NCBI RefSeq assembly: GCF_001581005.1
Contig: NZ_LHZV01000053.1
Coordinates: 1-64,000 of the forward strand
DNA from: Acetobacter orleanensis
Lineage (GTDB): Bacteria > Pseudomonadota > Alphaproteobacteria > Acetobacterales > Acetobacteraceae
Length of the DNA stretch: 64,000 nt
Direction: 5' to 3'
Made by a program: the position numbers and the translations under genes. The number at the start of each line of letters is the position of its first letter. Positions within the stretch are counted from its first letter, which is position 1. The notes beneath the pieces are model-generated. The model ran no database searches. It was not told the DNA's origin and worked only from the letters and a program-made list of their open reading frames with translations. Of the stretch, positions 35,812 through 40,348 are shown piece by piece.

Positions 35812-36131
35812 CACCGGCAATCGCTCCTGTGGGGCTTGGGCCTTACCTTGTAGTCAGTGCGGCGCTGCTGGTGCTGGGGGTGTTGGGTATTTTCCTTAAC
35901 CGGAAAAATATCATCATCATCCTGATGTCCATGGAACTCATTCTTCTGGCAGCCAACCTGAATTTTGTTGCGTTTTCCTCCGCCCATGCGGATCTGTCCG
36001 GGCAGGTAATGGTGCTCTTCGTGCTGACCATTGCCGCGGCGGAAGCCGCGATCGGGCTGGCGATTGTCACGGTGTATTTCCGTAACCGTGGGTCGATTCA
36101 GGTCGAAGACGTTACGATGATGAAGGGATGA
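35808..36131 (+). CDS. nuoK: NADH-quinone oxidoreductase subunit K
   Basis: 107 residues, three membrane helices. Family features are [28 protein letters not shown], with the conserved membrane Glu, and a second Glu in [11 protein letters not shown]. It is encoded in overlap with both nuoJ and nuoL (ATGA junctions). Confidence 0.96.
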
Positions 36132-38080
36132 ACGGACTGATGCAGACCGATCTTCACCTGTTTGCAGCCGCTGTAACCCTGCCTCTGGCAGGTGCGGTTG
36201 TTGCCGGGCTTGGTGGCCGCCTGATGGGCGATACGCTGGCCAAAATTGTGACGCTTCTGTGCATGGGTGTTGCCGCTCTGTGCGGGGTCGGGGCGCTGTG
36301 TGGCGGCTGGACCTCCGGGTTTGGCCCCTTTACCGTACCTCTGGCGGACTGGATTAATGCCGGTGGCTTCCATGCCTCATGGACGCTGCGGTTTGATACG
36401 CTCTCTGTCACCATGACAGCCATGGTGCTGTGCGTCTCGCTGCTGGTACATTGTTACAGCCTTGGCTATATGAGCCATGAGAGTATGCCGGTTTATCGGT
36501 TTTTTGCGTATCTCTCACTGTTTACCTTCGCCATGCTTATGCTGGTCTCCTCCTCTGACCTCATTCAGCTCTTTTTTGGGTGGGAAGGCGTGGGGCTCGC
36601 CAGTTATCTGCTCATTGGCTACTGGTATGACCGTCCTTCCGCAACGGCTGCGGCCATCAAGGCGTTTGTGGTTAACCGCGTGGCGGACCTGTTCTTCCTT
36701 GTGGGGATCGGCCTGATTTACGTTCAGTTCCATTCCGTACGGTATGAGGATATTTTTGCGGCTGTCCCGCAGATTGCAGGCGCACCCTATACGCTATTCG
36801 GACAATCTTTCCGCATGGTGGAAGTTATCAGCTTCCTGCTGTTTGTCGGCGCAATGGGCAAATCCGCTCAGTTGTTCCTTCACACATGGTTGCCTGACGC
36901 CATGGAGGGGCCGACGCCTGTTTCAGCCCTAATTCACGCCGCAACGATGGTGACAGCCGGTGTGTTCCTGATGGCGCGTATGTCTCCGTTGCTGGAAGTC
37001 GCGCCCAATACCCGCCTGTTTGTAATTTTTATTGGTGCCACAACCTGTTTTTTTGCAGCGACTGTCGGCATGGTGCAGCCGGATATCAAACGCAGCATTG
37101 CGTATTCCACCTGCTCTCAGCTTGGCTATATGTTCGCCGCTGTAGGTGTTGGAGCTTATCAGGCTTCTGTTTTTCATCTGACAACACATGCATTTTTTAA
37201 AGCGCTTCTGTTCCTTGGGGCTGGGTCGGTCATCCATGCGCTGCATGACGAGCAGAATATGTTCCGCATGGGCGGTCTGTGGAAAAAACTGCCGCTGACC
37301 TATGCGGTCATGTGGATTGGTAGCCTTGCGCTGGCCGGTGTGTTCCCCTTTGCCGGATACTGGTCGAAAGACGCTATTCTGAACACGCTGTGGGCGGCGG
37401 ATAGTGGCATGAGCCATTATGCGTGGACGCTGGGGGTCATCACGGCCTTCCTCACGGCCTTCTATAGCTGGCGTCTGATTTTTCTGGTGTTCCACGGGGC
37501 TCCGGCGGATGCACACGCCAGAGACGCCGCGCATGAAAGTCCGCTTTCCATGGCGCTGCCTCTGGTGCTGCTGGCCGTTGGTGCCGTGGTAAGTGGGGTT
37601 GCGCTGGCCCCGTATTATGTGGGGGCCCATCAGGCCGCCTTCTGGCAAGGCAGCATTTTCAACGCGCCCGGTAACAGCATTATGGAAACATTTGAACACG
37701 TGCCCGGCCTGATAGCACTCCTGCCGTCACTGGTAGGCTTTGCCGGGATTGCGGTGGCTTATGTGTTCTACATTGCCAAACCGGAACTGCCCGGAGCACT
37801 GGCGCGCTCCTGCGGCCCGATTTATCGGTTCCTGCTCAACAAATGGTATTTTGATGAGTTGTATGACCGGATTTTTGTGCGGCCTTACGCAGCGATAGCC
37901 CGCACTCTCTGGAAAGACGGGGAAGAAGGCGCAGTGGAAGGTCTGCCGCGAGATCTGGTGCAGGCCACTGCCACCGGCGCGTCAGACGCTGTGCGTCTGC
38001 AAACCGGGTCCATCGCTCTCTATGCGTTCACCATGCTGGCCGGTCTGGTTGTGGTGCTGACCGTCGCCCTCTGCGGGTGA
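36128..38080 (+). CDS. nuoL: NADH-quinone oxidoreductase subunit L
   Basis: 650 residues, the distal antiporter-like subunit. The ND5 signature is clear: [18 protein letters not shown] with the key membrane Glu, [36 protein letters not shown] with the key Lys, and the C-terminal lateral helix region ending [17 protein letters not shown] plus a last membrane segment. The gene is intact, not fused to another antiporter subunit. In the standard order nuoM should follow, but here only a 64-base gap separates it from nuoN. Confidence 0.97.
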
Positions 38081-38091
38081 AGGAGGCTGCA

Positions 38092-38148
38092 ATGATCAGG
38101 TCTGTTTTTTCTGTTTCCTCCTGTTCTGAATGGAGAGCCACACCATGA
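38092..38148 (+). other. 18-codon ORF occupying the nuoM position
   Basis: An ATG at 38092 follows AGGAGG (38081-38086) at good spacing, and the frame runs 18 codons to a TGA whose first two bases lie within the nuoN ATG (ATGA). The translation has no recognisable NuoM sequence. The start signal and the coupled stop are what one would expect at the two ends of a nuoM gene placed between nuoL and nuoN, so it may be a scar left by an internal deletion. It could equally be a short coupling peptide for nuoN. Confidence 0.5.
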
Positions 38149-39587
38149 GCGCGACATCGGTTAACTGGACACTGGCTCTGCCGGAAATCGCACTGGCGCT
38201 GGCTGGGCTGGTCATTCTCGTTTTTGGTGTGCTTCAGCGAGAGGGAAAGGGGATTGTCTCCTGCACCATGCTGACCGTGGCCGCTTTTATTGGTTGCGCT
38301 GCGCTGGTTGTGGTATCCCCTGATGGCGTGGCTTATGCAGGCACATTTGTGAATGACGGCTTTGCCCGCTTCATGAAGATCCTCGCGTTGCTGGGTGGCG
38401 TGGTGGCTCTTGTGCTGACACTCAGCTACCGCACGAATGACCGTGTGCCGCTGCCGTTTGAAACCGCCGTGCTGATCCTGTTTTCAACACTGGGCGCATT
38501 GATCATGGCGTCTTCCGCCAACCTGATGACGTTGTTTGTCGGGCTGGAATTGTCCTCGCTCTCTATTTACATTCTATGCGCGCTGGAACGGGATGATGTG
38601 ACCTCCTCCGAGGCCGGGCTGAAATATTTCGTTCTGGGCTCTCTGGCGTCCGGGCTGCTGCTGTATGGTATGTCTCTGGTGTATGGATATGCCGGGACCA
38701 TGGCCTATACGGGCCTGATTGCCGCAATTCAGCAGGCAGGCGCTCTGCCGTCCGGGCTGATGGTGGGCCTTGTCTTTATTATGGTCGGGCTGAGCTTCAA
38801 GCTCTCGGTCGTGCCGTTTCATATGTGGACGCCCGATGTTTATCAGGGCGCGCCCACACCCATTACGGCTTATATGGCAGGGGCTCCTAAATTCGCAGCA
38901 TTCGCGCTGTTCCTGCGTGTGATGAGCGGCCCGTTCGGCACCATGGCACCGCGCTGGCAAATCCTGATTGAAGCTTTGTCCATTCTCTCCATGGTGTATG
39001 GCGCATTTGCGGCCATTCCGCAGACCAACATTAAGCGGCTGATGGCCTATTCCTCTATCGGCCACATGGGCTATGCGCTCATGGGGCTGGCGGCGGCGTC
39101 CACCAACGGTGTGCGGGCGACGCTGGTTTATCTGGCGGCTTATCTGGTGATGAATGCCGGGGTGTTTGCTGTCATTACCGCTATGCGGCGCAAGGGGCGG
39201 GAAGTTACCTCTTTGTCTGATCTCGCTGGTCTTGGCCGGACAGACCCCGGTCTGGCGGCGGCATTGGCGATCTTCATGTTCAGCATGGTCGGAGCCCCCC
39301 CGCTGGCCGGTTTCTTCGGGAAGCTGATGGTTTTTGCCGCCGCATGGCAATCTGGCCTTTACGTTCTGGTCGTGATCGGGGCAGTCTCCAGCGTTGTTGG
39401 TGCGTATTATTATCTGCGGGTGGTGAAGGTGATGTATTTTGATGCCGCTTCGGAGGCGCTGGACCGGCCCGCGCGCAGCCTGCTGTTTGTTTCAGGGAGC
39501 ATGGGGCTGGCGACGGTCTTCTTCATTCTTGCCCTCGGCCCGCTAATGGCCATGGCCCGTCAGGCGGCTCTGGCTCTTGGCGGATGA
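38145..39587 (+). CDS. nuoN: NADH-quinone oxidoreductase subunit N
   Basis: 480 residues from the ATG at 38145, seven bases after GGAGAG; an earlier ATG at 38130 overlaps that site. NuoN is the antiporter-like subunit nearest the quinone arm. ND2-type segments are FVGLELSSLSIYILCAL, SEAGLKYFVLGSLASGLLLYG, LSFKLSVVPFHMWTPDVYQGAPTP with the key Lys, and IKRLMAYSSIGHMGYALMG. This is not NuoM, which would have LFFEW and a different Lys helix. The stop overlaps birA by four bases. Confidence 0.97.
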   Translation: MSATSVNWTLALPEIALALAGLVILVFGVLQREGKGIVSCTMLTVAAFIGCAALVVVSPDGVAYAGTFVNDGFARFMKILALLGGVVALVLTLSYRTNDRVPLPFETAVLILFSTLGALIMASSANLMTLFVGLELSSLSIYILCALERDDVTSSEAGLKYFVLGSLASGLLLYGMSLVYGYAGTMAYTGLIAAIQQAGALPSGLMVGLVFIMVGLSFKLSVVPFHMWTPDVYQGAPTPITAYMAGAPKFAAFALFLRVMSGPFGTMAPRWQILIEALSILSMVYGAFAAIPQTNIKRLMAYSSIGHMGYALMGLAAASTNGVRATLVYLAAYLVMNAGVFAVITAMRRKGREVTSLSDLAGLGRTDPGLAAALAIFMFSMVGAPPLAGFFGKLMVFAAAWQSGLYVLVVIGAVSSVVGAYYYLRVVKVMYFDAASEALDRPARSLLFVSGSMGLATVFFILALGPLMAMARQAALALGG

Positions 39588-40348
39588 GTGAGCGCCATAC
39601 GGCGTGGCGACTGGAATGTTATGAGGAACTGACGTCAACATCCGATGTCTGTCTAGAGCGGGCTCGTGGTGGCGAAGCGCACGGGCTAGCGCTTCTGGCT
39701 CTGCGCCAGACAAAAGGCCGGGGCAGCCGGGGCCGCAACTGGGCCAATGCCGGGCAGAGCCTCGCCTTTTCCGTTTTGCTGGATGCAAAACAAGCCGGGC
39801 AGGACGCCTTGGGCGGCTGGCCTTTTGTCGCCTCTTTAGCGTTTTTTGAAGGACTGGCGACCAGCGTTCCCGCAGCGCGGGACCGGCTGATGATCAAATG
39901 GCCGAATGATATTCTGCTGGATGGCCAGAAACTTGGCGGTATCCTCATTGAGCGGGAGGGGCCTATGCTGGTGATCGGCATGGGGGCCAATCTCAGCCAA
40001 CCCCCGCAGCAAGAGCAGATTGGCCGGATCGCCGCCTCTCTGGGGCAATGTGGGCCGGTGCCGCCGCCTGCCGAGGTGGCGCGGGCCATTCTTGCACAAC
40101 TGACGCATTGGTGTAGCGTCTGGCGGGAGGGTGGTTTTGCCGTTTTATGCGTAGAATGGCGGAAACGGGCACATCCTGTTGGCACGCCTCTTGTGGTAAA
40201 CGGCGGGACTACTTATGAAAAGGGCCAGTTTGCAGGGCTTGCCGATGATGGACGGCTTCTGCTTGACACGGAACAGGGTATGAAAACGATCGCAACAGGG
40301 GATATCCTGCTGGCAGAACAGGGGGCTGACGTTGCTTCTCGTCATTGA
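39584..40348 (+). CDS. birA: Biotin-[acetyl-CoA-carboxylase] ligase
   Basis: 254 residues. It activates biotin with ATP and attaches it to biotin carboxyl carrier proteins. There is no N-terminal DNA-binding domain, so it is a ligase only and not a repressor. Motifs: [12 protein letters not shown] at the start, [12 protein letters not shown] as the biotinyl-AMP loop, [20 protein letters not shown], and a small C-terminal SH3-like domain. It is coupled to nuoN by a 4-base overlap and overlaps coaX by 17 bases, as in several alphaproteobacterial nuo-birA-coaX-rnj clusters. Confidence 0.93.

Follow-up and report, generated by a model that had tools for sequence, protein, structure and literature searches.

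A probable relocation of nuoM out of the complex I operon and a conserved micro-ORF that may couple nuoN to nuoL in Acetobacter

The window analysed here, a stretch of 64,000 nucleotides from Acetobacter orleanensis, carries a complex I (nuo) operon in which nuoL (36128..38080, plus strand; NF005141 780.9 bits, cut-off 556), ending in a TGA codon, is followed by nuoN (38145..39587, plus strand; NF004440 579 bits, cut-off 519). As the initial annotation had pointed out, nuoM is missing between them: the two genes are adjacent with no Proton_antipo_M gene in between, and a Proton_antipo_M search of the strain's own genome found no nuoM in the window's nuo operon. The gap had also been described as the longest of the operon, which agrees with the ORF ends: of 13 junctions counted between nuoA and birA, nuoL-nuoN measures 64 nt, the second longest (nuoI-nuoJ) 36 nt and the remaining 11 between -31 and 11 nt.

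All signals attributed to this gap were found at 38081-38148. The Shine-Dalgarno-like AGGAGG (38081..38086, plus strand) precedes a micro-ORF (38092..38148, plus strand) of 18 codons and a TGA (38146-38148), and this stop overlaps the ATG of nuoN by 4 nt (ATGA). According to the sequence and our scan, a GTG overlapping the nuoL stop (GTGA; 38077..38079, plus strand) offers an alternative in-frame start, from which the micro-ORF would comprise 23 codons. The Shine-Dalgarno-like site of nuoN, GGAGA (38132..38136, plus strand), lies 8 nt upstream of the nuoN ATG, and a second possible ATG of nuoN is found in frame at 38130. The short T/C repeats named earlier are likewise present as letters in the gap, and no result of the analysis links them to a deletion. 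At the other end of nuoN, a birA-like gene (39584..40348, plus strand; named from a reading of the sequence) overlaps it by 4 nt, and the chain of coupled genes apparently extends past complex I.

Among the options raised for the missing gene, its presence elsewhere proved to be the correct one. The domain search of the window's genome (3.0 Mb, 67 contigs, 99.99% complete) revealed three Proton_antipo_M genes, namely nuoL, nuoN and a third one on contig C7 (G000:C7:102453-103970, minus strand), which lies apart from the nuo operon and codes for an intact protein of 505 aa. This protein was recognized as NuoM by TIGR01972 (539.5 bits vs a cut-off of 263.8; the NuoN model gave only 142.5) and reached 548.7 with the narrower equivalog NF004499, below its cut-off of 585. 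Residues 5-485 align with the solved NuoM chain 8qby_M, which we take to be a Paracoccus structure. Residues E144, K223, K254 and E396, presumably the charged residues of the proton path, are aligned to E, K, K and E of this chain and do not vary among 17 sequences, of which 16 are stand-alone NuoMs and one is an extra copy from genome G129. Upstream of the C7 nuoM and on the same strand are located mutL, identified by family match, and DUF3035, lspA and ileS, named from the sequence. With its genes at two loci, the predicted complex I of this strain still includes all three antiporter-like subunits.

The comparison with relatives that had been proposed for the nuoL-nuoN junction showed the same arrangement throughout the genus: in 25 of 25 Acetobacter genomes, our own included, the domain matches of nuoL and nuoN stand about 1.0-1.2 kb apart and NuoM is encoded elsewhere. 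Among the matches listed for 16 genomes of the same class, three matches in a row occurred in several, such as G025, G027, G033 and G040, and none of the three in G035. In a sample of 120 genomes of the family, in which adjacency was read by eye from tables, nuoL and nuoN were adjacent with NuoM elsewhere in 17; no NuoM was present in 9, and in 94, some of them at contig ends, NuoM lay beside nuoL or nuoN, three of these (G129, G131 and G050) carrying a further solo NuoM. A second nuoL-nuoM-nuoN cluster was observed beside the split one in 6 of the 25 genus genomes (G003, G007, G008, G015, G018 and G024), and some genomes of the family possess another type of nuo cluster only. In G165, a stand-alone nuoM (C63:12516-13370) occurs in a genome with no nuoL or nuoN match and no nuoD above the cut-off, which would be either an orphan left by loss of the operon or an assembly gap.

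The surroundings of the stand-alone gene were viewed in the best 80 of 121 loci, retrieved with the 16 stand-alone NuoMs and the G129 copy as query and biased to this kind of NuoM. These best 80 of 121 loci belong to Acetobacter, Gluconacetobacter, Komagataeibacter, Novacetimonas, Ameyamaea, Commensalibacter, Endobacter, Lichenicoccus and uncultured relatives, and the NuoMs closest to that of the window (95-96% identity) are those of A. persici, A. cerevisiae and A. malorum. Within the examined flanks neither nuoL nor nuoN was found near a stand-alone NuoM (0/80), and the distance to an upstream mutL is below 400 nt in 59 of the 80 and 2-7 kb in 6, mutL being out of view in the other 15. As a separate observation, no mutL is in view at 13 of the 38 loci named Acetobacter among these best 80, or at the nuoM of G007, G011, G013, G015, G018, G020 and G024, some of these loci being at contig ends; at such loci nuoM seems to have been relocated again within Acetobacter.

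Phylogenetic analysis pointed to one old event. In two trees, one clade united the stand-alone NuoMs and G129's extra copy (support 100 and 100/100; only 84 and 93/83 for the clade without the G129 copy), and this clade is nested among the operon-encoded NuoMs of the family. In the NuoN tree the 17 split genomes and two more of the genus formed one clade of 19 rows (99/98), and the NuoL tree did not resolve the split genomes as a clade. The RpoB tree (29 rows; G075 gave no rpoB match) holds 11 of the 17 split genomes and places all 11 on one side of a 100/100 branch. The same side contains four genomes with only another nuo cluster type, two without complex I, and G067, whose divergent nuo cluster groups with the other cluster type in the NuoM tree; the opposite side comprises 11 genomes, including G129, whose nuoL-nuoM-nuoN operons are of one and the same type as the split ones. 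As the split genomes form one clade, the move of nuoM is old and, most simply, single, with complex I lost or replaced later in some branches. Thus, by sequence comparison, the absence of nuoM from the operon reflects an old relocation rather than a loss in one strain or an assembly error. A foreign origin of the stand-alone NuoM was also considered and set aside, since the nesting of its clade inside the operon NuoMs is explained more simply by descent within the family.

Genome G129 combines a nuoM in the operon with a second, solo NuoM (G129:C1:809100-818600, L080) beside a gluQ-like gene, named from the sequence. The AU test rejected the joining of this extra NuoM with the operon copy of G129 (p 1.8e-49), and the branch of the extra copy is long. 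Such a state would fit a course in which the gene was first copied and later lost from the operon, and the long branch leaves room for a transfer. Additional solo NuoMs of separate origin were observed in G131 (L314, 4566-6146, minus strand) and G050 (L315, 4554-6071, plus strand); in both, as judged by eye, N replaces the K254 that is invariant in the stand-alone NuoMs (GVMLNMG).

The micro-ORF was then traced through the genus, where 48 of 49 sampled genomes possess nuoN; leaving aside G165, which lacks it, and G169, whose nuoL stops early as read and whose genome is 86% complete, 47 genomes were usable. A micro-ORF was defined as a frame of at least 8 codons with an ATG or GTG start from 4 nt before to 16 nt after the nuoL stop and with its stop at the nuoN start. 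Such a chain from the nuoL stop to the nuoN start was detected in 46 of the 47. Its end on the nuoN side is a four-base overlap in 39 of the 46, a one-base overlap in 6 and a stop 7 nt short of nuoN in one (G177), whose frame is in a different phase; G181 is the genome without any such frame and had an implausibly long branch in a further tree, on which no claim is based. On the nuoL side, 12 of 45 genomes have a start solely at the stop overlap and 33 an ATG located 5-16 nt past the stop, and 7 of these 33, the window included, possess in addition an in-frame start overlapping the nuoL stop. In the 11 genomes that share a 46-nt gap, the start overlaps the nuoL stop, and the ORF is closely joined to its neighbours on either side. 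The overlaps or spacings of a few nucleotides that are expected of termination-reinitiation coupling were thus observed. The length of the junction varies from 37 to 148 nt in Acetobacter, and the micro-ORF comprises 14 to 23 codons from the scanned start in genomes without the 148-nt gap and 47-51 codons (51 from the scanned start) in the three genomes with it.

Outside the genus, none of 14 split genomes has a frame of at least 8 codons with an ATG or GTG start, a result that is partly forced by their gaps of -4 to 34 nt. G107 and G156 have shorter frames (6-7 codons), and G048 has a frame of 13 codons if TTG is accepted as a start. No micro-ORF is present in the basal split genomes G041, G091, G105, G117 and G154, the last being outside the RpoB tree and sharing its genus code with G091. 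Their junctions measure -4 to 20 nt, and -4 to 19 nt in the first four, which the RpoB tree places nearest to the genomes with an operon nuoM.

That the frame arises by chance, its conserved end being merely the ribosome-binding site and second codon of nuoN, we regard as unlikely. Gaps permuted with their last 16 nt kept do yield such a frame at a mean of 0.31 per genome (range 0.02-0.81), with values of 0.53-0.76 in the 46-nt group, where the start codon shares letters with the nuoL stop, and a mean of 0.14 in the 32 genomes that remain when the 46-nt group, the 148-nt group and G020 are set aside. Kinship also inflates the count: clustering of the gaps at 70% identity left 14 clusters, of which 12 are wholly positive, with a shuffle product of 3.6e-8, and single linkage at 60% left 4 clusters with a product of 0.30, the cluster of 32 genomes being uncounted due to the failure of G177 and G181. 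Phase provides a clearer test than shuffling of whether the frame exceeds chance. Among the 47 genomes, phase 2 offered an open frame up to nuoN in 45, phase 1 in 4 and phase 0 in none, which, with the frame itself present in 46 of 47, argues against a chance origin. The distance from the start to nuoN takes 8 values between 41 and 140, all in one phase (partly by definition), and the total gap lengths are spread over the three phases (21, 14 and 10). The same test applied to the mutL-nuoM gap as a control was positive at 1 of 27 Acetobacter loci, this gap being longer (116-198 nt) and its chance expectation lower. Of 45 starts, 41 follow a Shine-Dalgarno-like stretch (0.48 in shuffles), many of these stretches being made up of letters of the nuoL end, and AGGA, GGAG or GAGG is found ahead of 16 of the 33 spaced ATG starts in the genus. 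The junction ORF is a real sequence feature of nearly all genus genomes examined.

The encoded peptide could itself be of use to the cell, for example as a tiny extra subunit or a stalling leader, and the conserved presence of the ORF and its version of 47-51 codons in three genomes would speak for it. We nevertheless consider such a function improbable, as the peptides of the subgroups are, by eye, mutually dissimilar beyond the letters that double as the nuoN Shine-Dalgarno site. The overlap of the frequent peptide end (R/W)SA with these letters is a point in favour of the chance reading. The pooled pN/pS over 17 disjoint pairs (35 synonymous and 76 non-synonymous differences) was 0.73 (range 0.70-0.73), not clearly below 1 (p 0.10), and a conserved peptide was rejected on this basis. 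A ribosome site hidden by RNA structure received no support from the folding of 47 genomes, which gave no sign of it beyond shuffles: unpaired values were 0.35 for the nuoN Shine-Dalgarno site, against 0.31 after shuffling (p 0.63), and 0.62 for the start codon of nuoN, which was slightly more open than after shuffling (0.55, p 0.03). The features that are kept at the junctions are the frame, a start at or near the nuoL end and a stop on the nuoN start.

The initial annotation had read the start and stop of the ORF as the two ends of a coupled gene and had considered deletion of nuoM between them. Conservation in the genus upholds the coupled ORF; the deletion scar, with the old ends kept and the middle removed, is very unlikely, even though the start and stop do sit where those of a coupled nuoM would. 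The move of nuoM predates the genus and the basal split junctions are tight and devoid of the ORF, which makes a nuoM relic unlikely; moreover, none of the split genomes outside the genus has a frame of the required length, with the reservation made above for their gaps, and within the genus both length and sequence vary freely, with no likeness to the ends of NuoM by eye. The other options, a two-antiporter or non-functional complex I and a loss of about 1.5 kb in assembly, agree with an operon without nuoM and can hardly be upheld in view of the full, intact NuoM encoded elsewhere in the genome, the nuoM-less adjacency of nuoL and nuoN in all 25 genus genomes, some of which are assembled in 3 to 5 contigs, and the detection of the NuoM protein in A. 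pasteurianus by proteomics, where, in the part of the study available, its level rises or falls along with those of several Nuo subunits (PMC10742644).

Taken together, the data make it probable that a single relocation of nuoM was combined with a micro-ORF that couples nuoN to nuoL. According to this scenario, nuoM departed from the nuo operon a single time, at an early stage of the acetous branch of Acetobacteraceae, and is now an independent gene whose first position was probably directly behind mutL. The exit of nuoM would have left nuoL and nuoN closely joined, and the gap would then have widened in Acetobacter, carrying the ORF. Ribosomes finishing nuoL may re-start on the micro-ORF, terminate on the start codon of nuoN and re-start there, so that nuoN would be tied to nuoL across a gap that alone would uncouple both. 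Selection would act on the translation of the frame, the peptide being irrelevant. The more specific proposal, to which we give an even chance, is that the ORF is a relay, a mini-cistron that evolved after the exit of nuoM with the sole job of ferrying terminating ribosomes and with a throw-away peptide, by which nuoN would be locked to nuoL and nuoM dosed separately from its own locus.

In published reporter tests, a spacing of about 20 nt left hardly any coupling and short overlaps proved necessary; such overlaps are enriched among subunits of complexes, as far as the available text of the source goes (PMC10666635). As coupling is nearly lost at about 20 nt, a relay that turns a gap of 37-148 nt into two close junctions would fit. 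Against the relay count the ATGs 5-16 nt past the nuoL stop in 33 of 45 genomes, where weaker coupling is expected, and the sister genera with gaps of about 24 nt, which manage without a frame of at least 8 codons.

Parts of this arrangement have precedents in the accessible portions of the literature. ATGA and TGATG overlaps between genes for complex subunits are described for gene pairs translated by termination-reinitiation (PMC10666635, PMC6728339), similarly to the nuoN start; unlike in those pairs, the overlap here is made by an added micro-ORF and not by two subunit genes. A similarly placed intergenic short ORF, mgtQ of Salmonella, lies between mgtC and mgtB and promotes translation of the next gene; it acts via stem-loops and acidic codons (PMC8092293), whereas the folding of the Acetobacter junctions gave no sign of a concealed ribosome site. 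Short genes right before a structural gene are also known as leader genes, for which enhanced translation through reinitiation has been proposed (PMC4833913), and the micro-ORF resembles them in this respect; contrary to these leaders, the Acetobacter micro-ORF lies inside an operon between two subunit genes.

The split itself can be found in gene lists of A. pasteurianus. Strain SKU1108 is listed with a nuo operon (APT_01737-APT_01725) and a separate nuoM (APT_00690) (PMC5158111), and complex I of strain 386B is given as APA386B_556-567 plus APA386B_2247 (PMC3751514), which is the same organization of an operon and one separate gene as here. The available passages on these strains do not comment on the split, nor do they treat its extent, its origin or the micro-ORF. 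The word nuoM is absent from the main text of an Acetobacteraceae phylogeny (PMC10715153), as is Acetobacter from the main text of a study on the distribution of complex I (PMC12361115), both as available. Our literature search, with supplements and most subscription papers beyond reach, met no account of the micro-ORF or of a clade-wide relocation. Hence, the split is already on record for one species. The junction ORF is newer and lends itself to testing as a variant of the intergenic ORFs that couple genes.

These results correct the false lead of a two-pump complex I and caution that a tidy short ORF in an operon gap is not necessarily the remnant of a gene. If the relay is true, Acetobacter would hold dozens of natural variants of a coupling element that range from about 13 to 51 codons in frame length and have little peptide sequence in common, and these variants would allow a test of whether termination-reinitiation needs just a frame and two close junctions. 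For the organisms themselves, the relocation means that one of the three antiporter subunits of complex I is encoded, and perhaps dosed, apart from the others in a large and industrially used clade.
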